Of a DNA stretch of 64,000 bases, positions 868 through 6,296 are shown in pieces. Source of the DNA: Sulfitobacter noctilucae (GTDB lineage: Bacteria > Pseudomonadota > Alphaproteobacteria > Rhodobacterales > Rhodobacteraceae); contig NZ_JASC01000013.1 in the NCBI RefSeq assembly GCF_000622365.1, positions 496,001-560,000 on the forward strand. Reading direction: 5' to 3'. The position numbers and the translations under genes were made by a program. Position 1 is the first letter of the stretch. Each line of letters starts with the position of its first letter. The notes beneath the pieces are model-generated. The model was not told the origin of the DNA. It searched no databases and saw nothing but the letters and a program-made list of their open reading frames with translations.

Positions 868-2139
868 TCAGGTGTTCATCGAATCAAAGAAGTCAGAGTT
901 TGTCTTGGTCTGCTTCAATTTTCCAATCAGGAACTCAATGGCGTCGGTCGTACCCATCGGATTCAAAATACGGCGTAGAACGAACGTCTTCTGCAGATCG
1001 ATCTTGTCCACCAGCAAGTCTTCTTTCCGTGTACCGGACTTGAGGATGTCGATGGCCGGGAACACCCGTTTGTCTGCAATTTTGCGATCCAGAACGATTT
1101 CCGAGTTACCCGTCCCTTTAAATTCTTCAAAAATCACTTCGTCCATACGGGAGCCGGTGTCGATCAGCGCAGTCGCGATGATGGTCAGCGAGCCGCCCTC
1201 TTCGATATTCCGCGCGGCACCAAAGAAGCGTTTGGGCCGTTGCAGGGCGTTGGCATCCACACCACCTGTCAGAACCTTACCCGAGGATGGCACAACCGTG
1301 TTAAAGGCGCGACCAAGGCGGGTGATGGAATCGAGCAAGATCACAACATCGCGCTTGTGTTCGACCAAACGCTTGGCCTTTTCAATCACCATCTCAGAAA
1401 CAGCAACGTGGCGCGTGGCCGGTTCGTCGAAGGTAGAGGACACAACCTCGCCTTTTACAGACCGCTGCATGTCGGTGACTTCTTCCGGCCGTTCATCAAT
1501 CAACAAAACAATCAGATAACATTCGGGGTGGTTCTGTTCGATTGAATTCGCAATGTTCTGCATCAGAACCGTCTTACCCGTGCGCGGCGGGGCTGTGATC
1601 AGACAGCGCTGACCTTTGCCGATAGGGGTTACCAGATCGATGATCCGGGCAGAGCGATCCTTGATTGTTGGATCGTCCACTTCCATCGTCAACCGCTCAT
1701 CAGGATAGAGTGGCGTCAGATTCTCGAAGGCGACCTTGTGGCGCGCCTTCTCGGGTTCTTCGAAGTTGATCCGTGTAACTTCGGTCAAGGCAAAATAACG
1801 CTCGCTGTCATCAGGTGCCTTGATAAGACCTTCGATCGTGTCGCCAGTCCGCAGCGAATGCTGTCGGATCATGTCAGGCGAGACGTAAATATCATCCGGG
1901 CCGGGCAAATAGTTCGCCTCGGGCGAACGCAGGAATCCGAAACCATCCTGCAACACTTCCAGCACGCCATCGCCAGAGATCTCCCAGCCCTCATCCGCAC
2001 GTTCTCGCAGGATCTGGAACATCATCTCGCCTTTGCGCATGGTCGACGCGTTTTCGATCTCAAGCTCTTCGGCCATTGCCAACAGATTTTTCGGCGTTTG
2101 CGCCTTGAGATCGGCGAGATTCAGAGTGTCAGTTGTCAT
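868..2139 (-). CDS. rho: transcription termination factor Rho
   Basis: Hexameric RNA-dependent ATPase that terminates transcription. The 423-residue product has the Rho N-terminal helical domain (about 1-45), a cold-shock-like RNA-binding domain (about 55-120) and a RecA-type motor with Walker A APPRTGKT at about 183-190 and Walker B ending in [14 protein letters not shown] chose ATG 2139 (protein begins [12 protein letters not shown]) over an in-frame start nine codons upstream, because the family starts here and an AGGA lies 8 bases ahead. The length is typical for Rho. It is divergent from maf across the candidate origin, with hemJ upstream on the same strand. Confidence 0.97.
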
Positions 2140-2262
2140 GGAAAAATCCTGTGCAGCCGCGATCAATCGGCGGGCTGGTCGTTATAAAAGGATGAGCTTA
2201 ATGCGATCCCCGAACGGGGTGCGCCTTGGCGTATAGGCTTCGGGACGCTCCGAGTCAATCAA

Positions 2263-2712
2263 TCAGAATTTGACGACAACCGACAGGACGATCAGGATCA
2301 TCAGCAGTGTCGGCACCTCGTTCATCATCCGGTACTGTCTGCCGGTCAGCGTATTCTGACCCACCTGAAACCCTCGCATCCGCGCCATCAGCCATTCGTG
2401 AAAGGCGGTCATACCCAACACCCCAACGAATTTGGTCCAGGGCCAGACATTGCTCCAATCCACGATCCCGGGTGTCAGCACCAGCGCAATGCCACAAATC
2501 CAGGTGACGATCATCGCGGGCTGCATAATCACCTTTGCCAGCTTGTATTCCATCATCGTAAAAAGCGTATGGGTTTCCCCTTCCAGCCCGACGCGTTCCG
2601 TGTGGTGTACCAACAGACGCGGCAAATAGAACAGCGCAGCCATCCACGATATCACGGCCATGATATGGACCGACTTGATCCAGGGATATGCAACTGCGAG
2701 GAAATCCATCAT
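2263..2712 (-). CDS. hemJ: protoporphyrinogen IX oxidase HemJ
   Basis: Membrane protein of the HemJ family (UPF0093), which oxidises protoporphyrinogen IX in haem synthesis in bacteria lacking HemG/HemY-type oxidases. The 149 residues form about four transmembrane helices. A conserved His sits in helix 1 (SVHIMAVISWMAALFYLPRL), followed by the family's HxE-rich loop. The start is either of two adjacent ATGs; GGAG stands 6 bases before the first, which is used here. It lies between rho and the candidate origin. In Caulobacter and Rickettsia another haem gene, hemE, occupies the position beside the origin; hemE is not in this window. Confidence 0.9.
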   Translation of the reverse strand: MMDFLAVAYPWIKSVHIMAVISWMAALFYLPRLLVHHTERVGLEGETHTLFTMMEYKLAKVIMQPAMIVTWICGIALVLTPGIVDWSNVWPWTKFVGVLGMTAFHEWLMARMRGFQVGQNTLTGRQYRMMNEVPTLLMILIVLSVVVKF

Positions 2713-3115
2713 GTCTCACTCCGTACTCTCTGCCCTTCTTATAATAATAAAGAAAAGAAGAAAGATGATGATGTAAGTAGGCTTGGGGATTTCTGTGGAT
2801 TACTTGTTTTTCCCGAAGTTACGCACAGCAGGAATATACTTTTGCACAGATCTGGATAAAATCTTGTAAATATTAAAAAAGGTATGTGGATTCAAAAAGT
2901 TACCTCAATATTGGATCAAGACACCTGTGTGTAAGCGAAGCAAAATGATCGGACAAACTGAGTCGCCCTCTGCATCGATTTGTCCTTTTCCCGCTCAGGA
3001 CAGAATTGACAAAGCGAAGGGATAACGCGGCAAAGCCGTGCCCTTGTGAACCATGAGCAAATTCTGCACTACAAGTGCTTAATAAGTCCTTAACAATGCC
3101 CACAAGGTTATCCCC
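2713..3115. other. oriC: candidate chromosomal replication origin (oriC)
   Basis: This 403-base gap has no gene. Its left part is AT-rich, with an A/T run at about 2861-2880 that could be the unwinding element. Several DnaA-box-like 9-mers differ from TTATNCACA by one base: 2794-2802 (minus), 2819-2827, 2840-2848, 2851-2859 (minus), 2926-2934 (minus) and 3108-3116. A perfect TTAA-N7-TTAA CtrA box is at 3079-3093. Genes diverge on both sides (rho and hemJ leftward; maf, aroE, coaE, dnaQ rightward). Maf-aroE-coaE-dnaQ-secB is the known right flank of the Caulobacter and Agrobacterium origins. The origin call is inference from context and motifs. Confidence 0.75.
3079..3093. promoter_or_regulatory. 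perfect CtrA box in the candidate origin
   Basis: TTAA at 3079-3082 and TTAA at 3090-3093 are separated by exactly seven bases (TAAGTCC), the full CtrA consensus. It ends 22 bases before the maf ATG. In Caulobacter, CtrA bound at the origin blocks initiation and also regulates nearby promoters; either role is possible here. Confidence 0.6.
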
Positions 3116-3715
3116 ATGCCGCACCCTCTTATTCTTGCTTCGGGGTCAGAGATCAGGTCGCGCCTTCTGTCCCAAGCCAAAGTCGAACACAGCGTCGTTG
3201 TTCCGCGCGTTGATGAAGAGATGATCAAGGCAGCCCTTGAAGCAGAGAACGCCCCACCCCGCGATATCGCAGATACGCTGGCAGAGATGAAGGCGCGTAG
3301 AATCAGTGAAAAGAACCCCGGCGCACTGGTTCTGGGGTGTGATCAGGTTCTGGACCACAAGGGCAATATGCTTTCAAAACCCGTTGACCAGGCCGATGCA
3401 ATCAATCAGCTCAGCGCGCTGCGCGGTGACCGCCATGCACTTTTGTCAGCGGCGGTGATCTGTGAAGACGGCAAACCGATCTGGCGACAGGTTGGTCAGG
3501 TCCGATTGCGCATGCGCGATGTGAGCGATGCATTCCTGCATGATTATGTCGAGCGGAACTGGGACAGCATTCGCCACGCTGTCGGCTGCTACAAACTTGA
3601 AGAAGAAGGTGTGCGGTTGTTCAGCGGGATCGAAGGGGATTACTTTCACGTCCTCGGTATGCCACTTTTAGAACTGTTGAATTATCTGACTTTGCGCGGG
3701 GATCTGCCCACATGA
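3116..3715 (+). CDS. maf: Maf-family nucleotide pyrophosphatase (YceF-like)
   Basis: Nucleoside triphosphate pyrophosphatase that hydrolyses non-canonical or modified nucleotides. The 199 residues start with the Maf signature LASGSEIRSRLL. LGCDQVL (about residue 79) resembles the YceF subgroup (m7GTP pyrophosphatase) more than the ADTVV-type dTTP/UTP subgroup; that substrate assignment is inference. It is the first rightward gene after the candidate origin. Its stop overlaps the aroE start by 4 bases (ATGA), so maf-aroE-coaE-dnaQ looks like one operon. Confidence 0.9.
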   Translation: MPHPLILASGSEIRSRLLSQAKVEHSVVVPRVDEEMIKAALEAENAPPRDIADTLAEMKARRISEKNPGALVLGCDQVLDHKGNMLSKPVDQADAINQLSALRGDRHALLSAAVICEDGKPIWRQVGQVRLRMRDVSDAFLHDYVERNWDSIRHAVGCYKLEEEGVRLFSGIEGDYFHVLGMPLLELLNYLTLRGDLPT

Positions 3716-4545
3716 ACTTGCCCAACATCCCTCTTGCCGGTGTCATCGGGTCACCCATTGCCCATTCCAAGTCGCCGCAATTGCACCGTCATTGGCTGAA
3801 AACCTACGGTATTCCGGGCCACTACATTCCGATGGAGGTTCAGTCGGATGATCTGGAAACGGTCATCAGAACCTTGCCCAAGATGGGTTTTGTCGGCGTG
3901 AATGTGACGATCCCGCATAAACAGGCGATCCTGTCTATTGCTGATCTGGTCACGGACCGAGCCACGCTGATTGGCGCGGCGAATACGATTATTTTCCGCA
4001 AGGATGGCAAGATCCACGCCGATAACACTGATGGGTACGGATTTATGGAGAACCTGAAAACCGGCGCGCCCGGCTGGTCCCCTAAATCCGGGCCTGCCGC
4101 TGTGCTGGGGGCCGGGGGTGCTGCCCGTGCTGTCATCGCCTCTTTGCTTGATTCCGGCGCGCCGGAAATCTTGCTGTCGAACCGGACCCGTGTGCGGGCC
4201 GAAAAGCTGAAGGATGATTTTGGTAGCCGTCTTCGCATCTTCGATTGGGTGCAGGCCGGGAATATGCTGGAACATGCATCTTTGGTCGTGAACACCACAT
4301 CGCTCGGGATGATCGGGAAAGGCGAAATGCGTGTGCCGCTGGATGGTCTGCAAAAGCAATCGGTCGTCACCGATCTGGTCTATGCACCGCTGAAAACCAA
4401 GCTGCTGGAAACCGCCGAAGAGGTTGGCTGTGTCACTGTCGATGGGCTTGGCATGCTGTTGCACCAAGCGGTTCCGGCGTTCGAGCGATGGTTCGGCAAA
4501 CGCCCGGAGGTCGACCGCGCAACCCGTGCGGCGGCACTGCGCTGA
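3712..4545 (+). CDS. aroE: shikimate dehydrogenase
   Basis: NADPH-dependent reduction of 3-dehydroshikimate to shikimate in aromatic amino acid synthesis. The 277-residue protein has the substrate-binding SPIAHSKSP near the N-terminus, NVTIPHK with the catalytic Lys at about 67, the NTDGYG motif with the catalytic Asp at about 105, and a Rossmann GAGGAARAV at about 129-137. The size is standard. It starts inside the maf stop (4-base overlap), and its own stop shares one base with the coaE ATG, indicating translational coupling. Confidence 0.97.
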   Translation: MNLPNIPLAGVIGSPIAHSKSPQLHRHWLKTYGIPGHYIPMEVQSDDLETVIRTLPKMGFVGVNVTIPHKQAILSIADLVTDRATLIGAANTIIFRKDGKIHADNTDGYGFMENLKTGAPGWSPKSGPAAVLGAGGAARAVIASLLDSGAPEILLSNRTRVRAEKLKDDFGSRLRIFDWVQAGNMLEHASLVVNTTSLGMIGKGEMRVPLDGLQKQSVVTDLVYAPLKTKLLETAEEVGCVTVDGLGMLLHQAVPAFERWFGKRPEVDRATRAAALR

Positions 4546-5135
4546 TGTTTTTGCTGGGGCTGACAGGGTCGATCGGCATGGGGAAATCCACCACTGCCAA
4601 GATGTTCGAGGATGAGGGCTGTGCCCTTTGGGATGCGGATGCCGCTGTGCACCGGCTTTATGGCGCAGGGGGCGCAGCAGTTGAAAAGATCGGCAAGCTG
4701 TTCCCGGATGCTGTGGCAGATGGTGCAGTTTCGACGGCCAAACTGCGCGAGATCATCGCGAAAGACGAGACTGCGCTGAAAACAATCGAAGGCATTGTGC
4801 ATCCGCTGGTCGGTCAGGACCGCGTCGAGTTTCTGAACAACACCAAGGCAGATATCATCGTGCTTGATATCCCTTTGCTTTTTGAAACTGGGGGTGAGGG
4901 CAAAGTCGATGCGGTTGTTTGCGTGCTGACCGATGACGAAACCCAGAAAGAACGTGTGATGGCGCGTGGAGTAATGACGGAAACGCAATTTGAATTGATC
5001 CGCTCCAAACAACTACCTGCCGCGACCAAAGCGGAACGGGCTGATTATGTGATCAACACGGATACGATGGATCAAGCCCGCGAACAGGTACGCAACGTGG
5101 TGCGGGACATCAGGGAGAAGCTACAAAATGCGTGA
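4545..5135 (+). CDS. coaE: dephospho-CoA kinase
   Basis: Catalyses the last step of coenzyme A synthesis, phosphorylating the 3'-OH of dephospho-CoA. The 196-residue P-loop kinase begins MFLLGLTGSIGMGKST, so the Walker A motif lies within the first 16 residues. DADAAVHRLY matches the family's conserved DAD segment, and LLFETGGEGKVD is the typical lid-proximal segment. ATG 4545 overlaps the aroE stop by one base (TGATG), which decides the start; the frame remains open upstream through aroE. It overlaps dnaQ by 8 bases. Confidence 0.95.
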   Translation: MFLLGLTGSIGMGKSTTAKMFEDEGCALWDADAAVHRLYGAGGAAVEKIGKLFPDAVADGAVSTAKLREIIAKDETALKTIEGIVHPLVGQDRVEFLNNTKADIIVLDIPLLFETGGEGKVDAVVCVLTDDETQKERVMARGVMTETQFELIRSKQLPAATKAERADYVINTDTMDQAREQVRNVVRDIREKLQNA

Positions 5136-5814
5136 GATCGTTCTAGATACAGAGACCACCGGCTTTGACCCCGAAACAGGGGACCGTATTGTCGAAATCG
5201 GCGCTGTTGAGTTGATGGGCCATGTCGCAACGGGCCGCACCTATCATCAGTACATCAACCCCGAACGCGCCATGCCGAATGATGCCTTCGAAGTGCACGG
5301 GCTGGGCGACGAGTTTCTGCGCGACAAGCCCAAATTTGCCCAGATCGGCCAAGCCTTTCTGGACTTTATCGGCGATTCCAAGCTGATCATCCATAACGCG
5401 GCTTTCGATATCAAATTCCTGAATGCCGAGCTGAAATGGATGAACCTGCCGCAAATCCCGTGGGAGCAGGCGCTTGATACATTGGCGATTGCCCGCAAGA
5501 GGTTCCCCGGCTCGCCTGCGTCGCTTGATGCATTGTGCCGCCGGTTCAACATCGACAATACATCGCGCACATTGCACGGCGCTTTGCTCGACAGTGAAAT
5601 TCTGGCGGAAGTGTATCTGGAGCTGATTGGCGGGCGGCAACCGGATTTCGGCCTGTCCGCACAACCGCAGGCCAAACCGGGAGAGGTATCTGCGAGTTGG
5701 ACGCCGAAACCACGGGCTAAACCCTTGCCTTCGCGGCTGTCTGAGTCAGAAGCTGCCGCCCACGATGCTTTTGTCAGCAAATTGGGCGACAGCGCTTTGT
5801 GGTCTAAAGCTTAG
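5128..5814 (+). CDS. dnaQ: DNA polymerase III epsilon subunit (proofreading exonuclease)
   Basis: 3'-5' proofreading exonuclease of the replicative polymerase. The 228 residues carry all three DEDDh motifs: Exo I DTETTGFD (about 7-14), Exo II HNAAFDIKFL (about 89-98) and Exo III HGALLDSEILAEVY (about 149-162) with the catalytic His and Asp. The C-terminal 45 residues are proline- and alanine-rich, as expected for the tail that contacts the polymerase alpha subunit. It is the last gene of the maf operon. Its stop overlaps the convergent secB stop by 4 bases, leaving no room for a terminator between them. Confidence 0.96.
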   Translation: MREIVLDTETTGFDPETGDRIVEIGAVELMGHVATGRTYHQYINPERAMPNDAFEVHGLGDEFLRDKPKFAQIGQAFLDFIGDSKLIIHNAAFDIKFLNAELKWMNLPQIPWEQALDTLAIARKRFPGSPASLDALCRRFNIDNTSRTLHGALLDSEILAEVYLELIGGRQPDFGLSAQPQAKPGEVSASWTPKPRAKPLPSRLSESEAAAHDAFVSKLGDSALWSKA

Positions 5815-6296
5815 GCGTCCGCTTTGGGCGCGCCTTCGACGGCCTGACGGCGCGCAATCTCGTTACGGTACAGCGATACGAAATCGATGTTCTCGAGGTT
5901 CAGTGGCGGGAAGCCACCATCGCGCGTCACATCGCTGACAATCCGGCGCAGGAACGGGAAAATCATCCGCGGGCATTCGATCAGCAAGAAGGGGTGGATT
6001 TGATCGTCTGGCACGCCTTCAATGTGGAAAATGCCGACATAATCAATTTCAAGCACGAACAAGGTGGTATCGCCGCCGGTATCTTTCGAGGTAACGTTCA
6101 GCTTAATGGAGCTTTCGTACTGGTTATCGGTAGACCGCTTCTTCGCGTCCAGATTGACCTGTACCTGCACATCAGGCTGCACATCGGCATTGCTGCCCTT
6201 CTGCGCCATGATGTTCTCAAACGACATATCGCGAATGTACTGCCCCAGAACGCGCATCTGCGGTGCTGCTGCTGCTTGTGCTTCTTCTTCGGCCAT
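5811..6296 (-). CDS. secB: protein-export chaperone SecB
   Basis: Cytosolic tetrameric chaperone that keeps preproteins unfolded and hands them to SecA. The 161 residues include the SecB core with the peptide-groove sequence QYIRDMSFEN and the conserved PFLRRIVSDVTRDGGFPPLNLENIDF-type C-terminal region (the SecA contact). The N-terminal Glu/Ala-rich tail is usual in Alphaproteobacteria. It is transcribed leftward, convergent with dnaQ, and lies downstream of fxsA on the same strand (57 bases apart). Confidence 0.96.
   Translation of the reverse strand: MAEEEAQAAAAPQMRVLGQYIRDMSFENIMAQKGSNADVQPDVQVQVNLDAKKRSTDNQYESSIKLNVTSKDTGGDTTLFVLEIDYVGIFHIEGVPDDQIHPFLLIECPRMIFPFLRRIVSDVTRDGGFPPLNLENIDFVSLYRNEIARRQAVEGAPKADA

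Follow-up and report, generated by a model that had tools for sequence, protein, structure and literature searches.

The chromosomal origin of Caulobacter crescentus, Cori, lies between hemE and COG1806, as described in the accessible text of PMC1914354. In Rhodobacteraceae, placement of oriC next to maf is given as conserved in the available text of PMC4793288, and according to the accessible part of PMC6699656, oriC has been assigned in 101 members of the family. For duplex opening, the published lenient rule calls for three 3'-NAN-5' trios at ≤16 bp from a DnaA box (PMC8287927, accessible text). A literature search for a Sulfitobacter origin or an origin bordered by hemJ returned only the maf statement in the available text of PMC4793288. 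A maf-adjacent oriC is already known for the family; the freshest result of the present analysis is a conserved GATGATG module. This left-border module, together with the hemJ/rho left border, is described here from sequence and is absent from the accessible text of PMC4793288.

The gap between hemJ and maf

The window, a stretch of 64,000 nucleotides, corresponds to C13:496001-560000 of a 3.91 Mb draft genome in 14 contigs, contig C13 being 704,360 bases long. Positions are those of the window unless C13 is named. A sequence-only reading of this DNA had proposed the gene-free interval between hemJ and maf as the chromosomal origin, and this proposal was supported by the DnaA box cluster, the AT content, the skew change point, the nearby parABS genes and sites and the conserved place of the gap. 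We consider the gap very probably to be oriC of the main chromosome, judging from its sequence features. Its coordinates were confirmed, with the hemJ start at 2712 (minus strand) and the maf start at 3116 (plus strand), and the genes on either side diverge. The following genes surround it.

868..2166, minus strand: rho (Pfam PF07497/PF07498)
2263..2712, minus strand: hemJ (UPF0093), left border (Pfam PF03653)
2713..3115, no strand: putative oriC, the whole intergenic region hemJ/maf, 403 bp (AT content, DnaA boxes, skew, conservation)
3116..3715, plus strand: maf, right border (Pfam PF02545)
3712..4545, plus strand: aroE (Pfam PF08501)
4542..5135, plus strand: coaE (Pfam PF01121)
5128..5814, plus strand: dnaQ-like exonuclease (Pfam PF00929)
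5811..6296, minus strand: secB (Pfam PF02556)

The left-hand cluster reads parB-parA-rsmG-mnmG-mnmE-rho-hemJ, with parAB and parS 3-7 kb left of the gap. Both placements that mark a Rhodobacteraceae oriC, adjacency to maf (here at 3116) and proximity to parAB, were thus found. The sequence-only reading gives the same flanks, rho-mnmE-mnmG-parAB and maf-aroE-coaE, for Caulobacter. The closest named relatives by the maf gene belonged to Sulfitobacter and Roseobacter (83% for the first), so the DNA probably comes from a Sulfitobacter-like roseobacter. A mechanical ORF at 2398-2859 on the plus strand, entering the gap antisense to hemJ, was not taken as a gene. The Rfam scan of the window gave no match, and the tRNA scan found none.

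The locus had also been described as a variant lacking hemE and the PpsR-like border gene. The absence held: the Caulobacter-type border of hemE and COG1806/PPPase is not found at this gap, hemE is encoded on contig C5, away from the gap, and COG1806/PPPase (PF03618) had no match in the whole genome. The implied oddity did not, as all 28 named loci found through maf had the same gap (25 hemJ/maf, 3 rho/maf). The size of the hemJ/maf gap in named relatives was 375-416 bases despite identities down to 60% for maf and 52% for hemJ; the maf start was extrapolated in six of these loci, and in one of the six the hemJ start as well. In loci L037, L044, L045, L054, L063, L205, L208, L210, L212, L215 and L217, rho faces the gap and hemJ was undetected, which is a further change of border gene inside the order.

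PPPase was present in 89 of 142 class genomes, and maf and aroE follow it in many class loci. We compared 31 PPPase loci, namely the 30 best-scoring ones and L118, which was found by pattern. The left border was hemE in 30 of them and rho in L101; the order was hemE then hemJ in L113, and hemE then a ferrochelatase-like frame (by eye) in L118. Locus L101, from outside the family, runs rho, a gap with GATGATG, PPPase and then aroE, with hemE and maf undetected. The simplest history would be that the lineage lost PPPase and hemE moved away, which would have left hemJ and maf as the borders.

DnaA boxes, strand polarity and replicon

The gap is AT-rich, as the sequence-only reading had it, with 58.6% AT against 43.9% for the whole window; equally AT-rich 403-base windows make up 0.015% of the surrounding 400 kb. 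The elements within it are given below.

2739..2781, plus strand: C-free A-rich tract of 43 nt, the longest C-free run, ending in a trinucleotide array; candidate unwinding site
2764..2773, plus strand: GATGATGATG repeat, the most conserved non-box element by GATGATG count and alignment
2775..2780, plus strand: AAG TAG, two canonical DnaA-trios (3'-GAT GAA-5'), spacer of 13 to the first box
2794..2802, minus strand: DnaA box 1, TAATCCACA (TGTGGATTA on the plus strand), position conserved
2819..2827, plus strand: DnaA-box-like TTACGCACA; several relatives have GTTATCCAC here
2840..2848, plus strand: DnaA-box-like TTTTGCACA, fits TTWTNCACA
2851..2859, minus strand: DnaA box TTATCCAGA, ≤1 mismatch from TTATCCACA
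2856..2916, no strand: central AT-rich core, second candidate DUE; 76.7% AT in a 60-mer, the highest of 400 kb
2926..2934, minus strand: DnaA-box-like TTACACACA; several relatives have TGTGGATAA in the region
3079..3093, no strand: CtrA-type box TTAATAAGTCCTTAA, 22 bp before maf
3108..3116, plus strand: DnaA box TTATCCCCA, running into the maf start codon; a number of relatives have TTATCCACA

A DnaA-dependent oriC is characterized by an AT-rich unwinding region, for which the most AT-rich 60-mer is a candidate, and by a box cluster above chance. Five box definitions were scored per 403 bases across 400 kb: TTWTNCACA exact or with ≤1 mismatch, TTATCCACA with ≤1 or ≤2 mismatches, and TGATCCACA, the Caulobacter G-box type consensus, with ≤1 mismatch. 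For TTWTNCACA with ≤1 mismatch, the 403-base window from 2751 contained six boxes, the maximum of the 400 kb (mean 0.39), and two out of 300 Markov-simulated gaps reached the in-gap count of five. The gap was also the top window for TTATCCACA with ≤2 mismatches, where the observed six boxes were reached by none of 300 simulations. At ≤1 mismatch from TTATCCACA, three boxes were found (2794 minus, 2851 minus and 3108 plus, the last overrunning the right end of the gap by one base) and none was perfect; this ties for the top with a window at 432.9 kb of the contig. Exact TTWTNCACA did not place the gap at the top of the 400 kb (one site, two at dnaA), and TGATCCACA with ≤1 mismatch gave one site in the gap, showed no enrichment and was not top of the 400 kb. 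A cluster above chance was therefore obtained with two definitions on top, one tied and two not.

The claim of at least six boxes one mismatch from consensus has to be narrowed accordingly. The clustering is real by most definitions, but only three boxes lie one mismatch from TTATCCACA; a count of six takes the looser TTWTNCACA consensus with one mismatch and the inclusion of the overrunning box at 3108-3116. Three box-like 9-mers, two plus and one minus, are packed into 41 bases at 2819-2859, beside the central AT core. With the IHF consensus, one-mismatch sites were located at 2890 (plus) and 3072 (minus), two versus 0.21 expected per 403 bases. GANTC sites occur at 2889 and 2960, above the background expectation of 0.44.

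Cumulative GC skew, computed over C13:300-700 kb (400 kb), drops on the left and climbs on the right. The expectation that its minimum would fall in the gap was borne out for the detrended curve, the change point of which is at C13:498738 (window 2738), inside the gap; the raw cumulative minimum lies ~14.5 kb to the right, at C13:513462, only 65-67 counts from the gap value. A block bootstrap that assumed the gap as the origin placed 11% of change points ≥14 kb away. KOPS motifs (GGGNAGGG) pointed away from the locus, with 15 of 20 on the minus strand to the left and 21 of 28 on the plus strand to the right. Their best split, between C13:506089 and C13:514007, had 38 of 48 concordant, and a split placed at the gap itself had 36 of 48. 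The switch in strand composition and KOPS typical of oriC is thus present, with the raw minimum lying ~14.5 kb and the best KOPS split 7-15 kb away. Another polar motif that was tried, GGGANGGG, was weaker than KOPS (26/41), and biased octamers gave no clear polarity signal.

These displaced optima, and the promoter-like place of the CtrA box 22 bp before maf, would suit a gap that is a mere shared divergent promoter of hemJ and maf, with the origin nearby, around rho-parAB or 7-15 kb to the right. We regard this explanation as very improbable. The box counts for TTWTNCACA (≤1) and TTATCCACA (≤2) are unmatched by other 403-bp windows in 400 kb, and the detrended change point falls inside the gap; moreover, in named relatives the gap length is kept wherever hemJ is present, despite the divergence of both border genes, and the left module described below recurs across the order.

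An origin at dnaA, as in many bacteria, is an explanation of practically negligible probability. The only DnaA match is on the same contig (642.8 kb), 144 kb from the gap, and the top windows for exact TTWTNCACA, with two sites, begin at C13:643651-644001, beside dnaA. Against it, there is no skew minimum at dnaA (cumulative value -3095 vs -4092 at the gap), the boxes are two only, and parS is 149 kb away. The two exact sites in the windows by dnaA possibly serve autoregulation.

A whole-genome search for the parS consensus with ≤2 mismatches found two sites only, both perfect (C13:493639-493654 and C13:495529-495544). They are located 3-5 kb left of the gap, within the first codons of rsmG and mnmG. 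A single palindromic hit came from the reversed-pattern control. Placement on a secondary replicon had been named as grounds for rejecting the origin. The gap appears instead to belong to the main chromosome, because parABS, rho and mnmEG adjoin it and the 704 kb contig also carries dnaA.

Polarity was also determined in two family members in which the contig bearing the locus measures 4.52 Mb (genome ~4.9 Mb) and 3.86 Mb (~3.9 Mb), respectively; both were sampled at 20 even points of 20 kb each and treated as circular. In the first relative, GC skew and KOPS, fitted separately, both put the origin at 4.25-4.46 Mb, with hemJ/maf at 4.398 Mb; in the second, they put it at 3.65-3.83 Mb, with hemJ/maf at 3.742 Mb. 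The brackets containing hemJ/maf in both are about 190-220 kb wide. Skew in the first relative was negative in 10 of 10 left samples and positive in 9 of 10 right samples; in the second it was noisy (8/10 and 6/10, respectively), but KOPS gave a clear signal there. Minus to plus KOPS counts on the left were 29:6 and 53:5 in the first and second relative, and plus to minus counts on the right were 34:6 and 48:7.

The left module and the candidate unwinding site

According to the alignment of related gaps, inspected by eye, the left end consists of an A-rich tract, GATGATG, TAGG and the box TGTGGATTA, followed by a variable AT-rich middle. Further right, many rows show TGTGGATAA-like and TTATCCTTATCC-like boxes, some have a CtrA-type box, and in many a box lies over the maf start codon. 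The exact pattern GATGATGNTN{12,22}TGTGGATTA was detected in 41 of 292 order genomes, with no hit of the reversed-pattern control, and the 30 of those loci that were retrieved all had maf on one side and hemJ (28) or rho (2) on the other.

A model of the 67-base left module, built from sequence only, used 25 of 29 gaps; L037 was left out for want of a readable motif, and L040, L042 and L048 as close to included rows. It gave one match in the 400 kb, at the gap. Among 149 order genomes, 125 matched at E≤0.1 (112 at E≤0.01) and 24 did not; six of the 125 gave two matches, and some weak matches must be accidental at a threshold of E≤0.1 per genome. All 50 matches inspected were in this gap (41 hemJ/maf, 8 rho/maf, 1 hemJ/aroE), these being the best 30, many of them from the pattern-search genomes, and 20 weaker ones picked by hand. 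In L207, hemJ and aroE flank the left module, and maf was undetected there.

GATGATG was present in 27 of 29 maf-selected gaps (absent in L037 and L050) versus 4 of 30 hemE/PPPase gaps. In the 20 weaker loci, it occurred in 11 of the 16 with a readable border, being absent in L202, L203, L209, L214 and L216; L207, L212, L215 and L217 had no border reading. A class-wide marker, AAGATGATGN{14,26}TGTGGAT, was tried and rejected: it was found in 14 of 385 class genomes, including two of this genus, with one reversed-control hit. Of the 12 out-of-genus matches, the three whose ORFs were read were L118, at a hemE/PPPase origin, and L117 and L119, which fall within or next to unrelated genes; the combination of GATGATG and a neighbouring box therefore does not identify origins across the class. 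A search of the openly accessible literature returned no prior account of the GATGATG element among the papers listed.

The C-free tract beside hemJ exceeds expectation. Its 43 nt compare with a simulated mean of 22 and maximum of 38 (40 simulations); over 29 gaps, the mean run was 46 vs 23 simulated, and in 30 hemE/PPPase gaps the excess was weaker (30.8 vs 19.7). With boxes at ≤1 mismatch, runs satisfying the lenient trio rule were found in 17 of 29, 17 of 30 and 10 of 30 gaps, versus 3%, 4% and 1% of simulations. The present gap has one such run at 2826-2837 (four trios, spacer 13, box 2851). Beside conserved box 1, the lenient rule finds two trios only, AAG TAG, and the GATGATG array starts ~21 bp away. 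In none of the three sets (0/29, 0/30 and 0/30 gaps) were three in-phase canonical trios, 3'-[GA]A[TA]-5', seen at ≤16 bp from a box (≤2 mismatches). Strict membership in the canonical DnaA-trio class was dropped because 0/89 gaps carry three such trios.

The left module (A-rich tract, GATGATG, TAGG and TGTGGATTA) may instead be a candidate permuted DnaA-trio element. Tentatively, origins of Rhodobacterales could open at an element of this kind, made of (TGA)n GATGATG, one proximal TAG and a C-free purine tract, a proposal that we put forward as possible rather than probable. Under the same proposal, hemE/PPPase class-mates would mostly carry TAG/TTG/TGG arrays, and this order would be largely fixed on (TGA)n; by eye, the array in hemE/PPPase gaps often reads TAG, TTG and TGG units.

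For the direction of opening, the most likely course is leftward from box 1 across the GATGATG array. DnaA would load on the clustered boxes, from the leftmost, TGTGGATTA, through to the one over the maf start, and its filament would extend to the left of box 1 along the TAGG/GATGATG array. Opening would then follow in the A-rich, C-free tract beside hemJ, helicase would be loaded there, and replication forks would depart both ways. Opening could also start centrally, in the AT core at 2856-2916 or at the lenient trio run by box 2851, a doubtful though not negligible alternative. The core is the most AT-rich 60-mer of the 400 kb, and the best lenient run adjoins box 2851 rather than box 1; however, the middle is poorly conserved in the alignment, and it is the left tract that is repeatedly C-free, beside the best-conserved box.

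The CtrA-type box and comparison with described origins

The perfect CtrA box of the sequence-only reading was confirmed as TTAA-N7-TTAA at 3079-3093, one of three such sites in 400 kb (6 hits over both strands). In two sets of gaps, 8 of 29 and 6 of 30 carry the motif at -36/-37 from maf, versus 0.014-0.017 expected per gap; the two sets are not independent, because close species are common to both. Elsewhere in the gap, it occurred in 2 and 1 further gaps, respectively, and also in 3 of 30 hemE/PPPase gaps. CtrA is encoded in the genome (NF045991, 430 bits, cut-off 350). In Dinoroseobacter, CtrA has been tied to flagella, gene transfer agents and quorum sensing, and the accessible text of that paper names no CtrA site at the origin (PMC6473078).

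CtrA might bind the box at 3079-3093, restraining initiation or controlling maf. We give about even chances to the box being part of the maf promoter with no replication role. Its fixed distance from maf in some gaps, with the box not found there in the remainder, and its single copy here versus five in Caulobacter (PMC1914354, accessible text) fit a promoter element; its position within the origin, between DnaA boxes, the low chance expectation and the presence of an encoded CtrA speak for more than that. A replication role would in any case not be general, since the box is missing at -36/-37 in the other gaps.

Overall, the gap is a well-supported chromosomal origin of an ordinary kind, which the sequence-only reading identified correctly. 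This fixes where replication starts in this genome and, via the left module, in much of the order, which is abundant in the sea. A known start point opens the way to growth-rate estimates from read depth and to building oriC plasmids, and the CtrA-type box in the origins of some members makes a link between CtrA and replication testable in the group. Should opening indeed take place at the GATGATG array, this would show how far the single-strand code of DnaA can drift. If the permuted-trio reading is true, single-strand recognition by the initiator would differ from the Bacillus rule, and the 67-base module would be a ready-made origin finder for the order.

Compared with the Rhodobacteraceae oriC (DoriC/Ori-Finder; PMC4793288, accessible text), the gap is likewise maf-adjacent, and no difference in location was found. 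Its proximity to parAB and to a GC-skew switch resembles the criteria in the available text of PMC6699656. With Cori of C. crescentus, as described in the accessible text of PMC1914354, it shares DnaA boxes and an AT-rich region, and it carries one CtrA-type box where Caulobacter has five CtrA sites. With the basal unwinding system (PMC8287927, accessible text), the left module shares the box, the 13-bp spacer and, on one and the same strand, TAG (3'-GAT-5') with an A-rich tract of three-base periodicity; unlike that system, it has only two in-phase canonical trios beside box 1, followed by the permuted (TGA)n/GATGATG.
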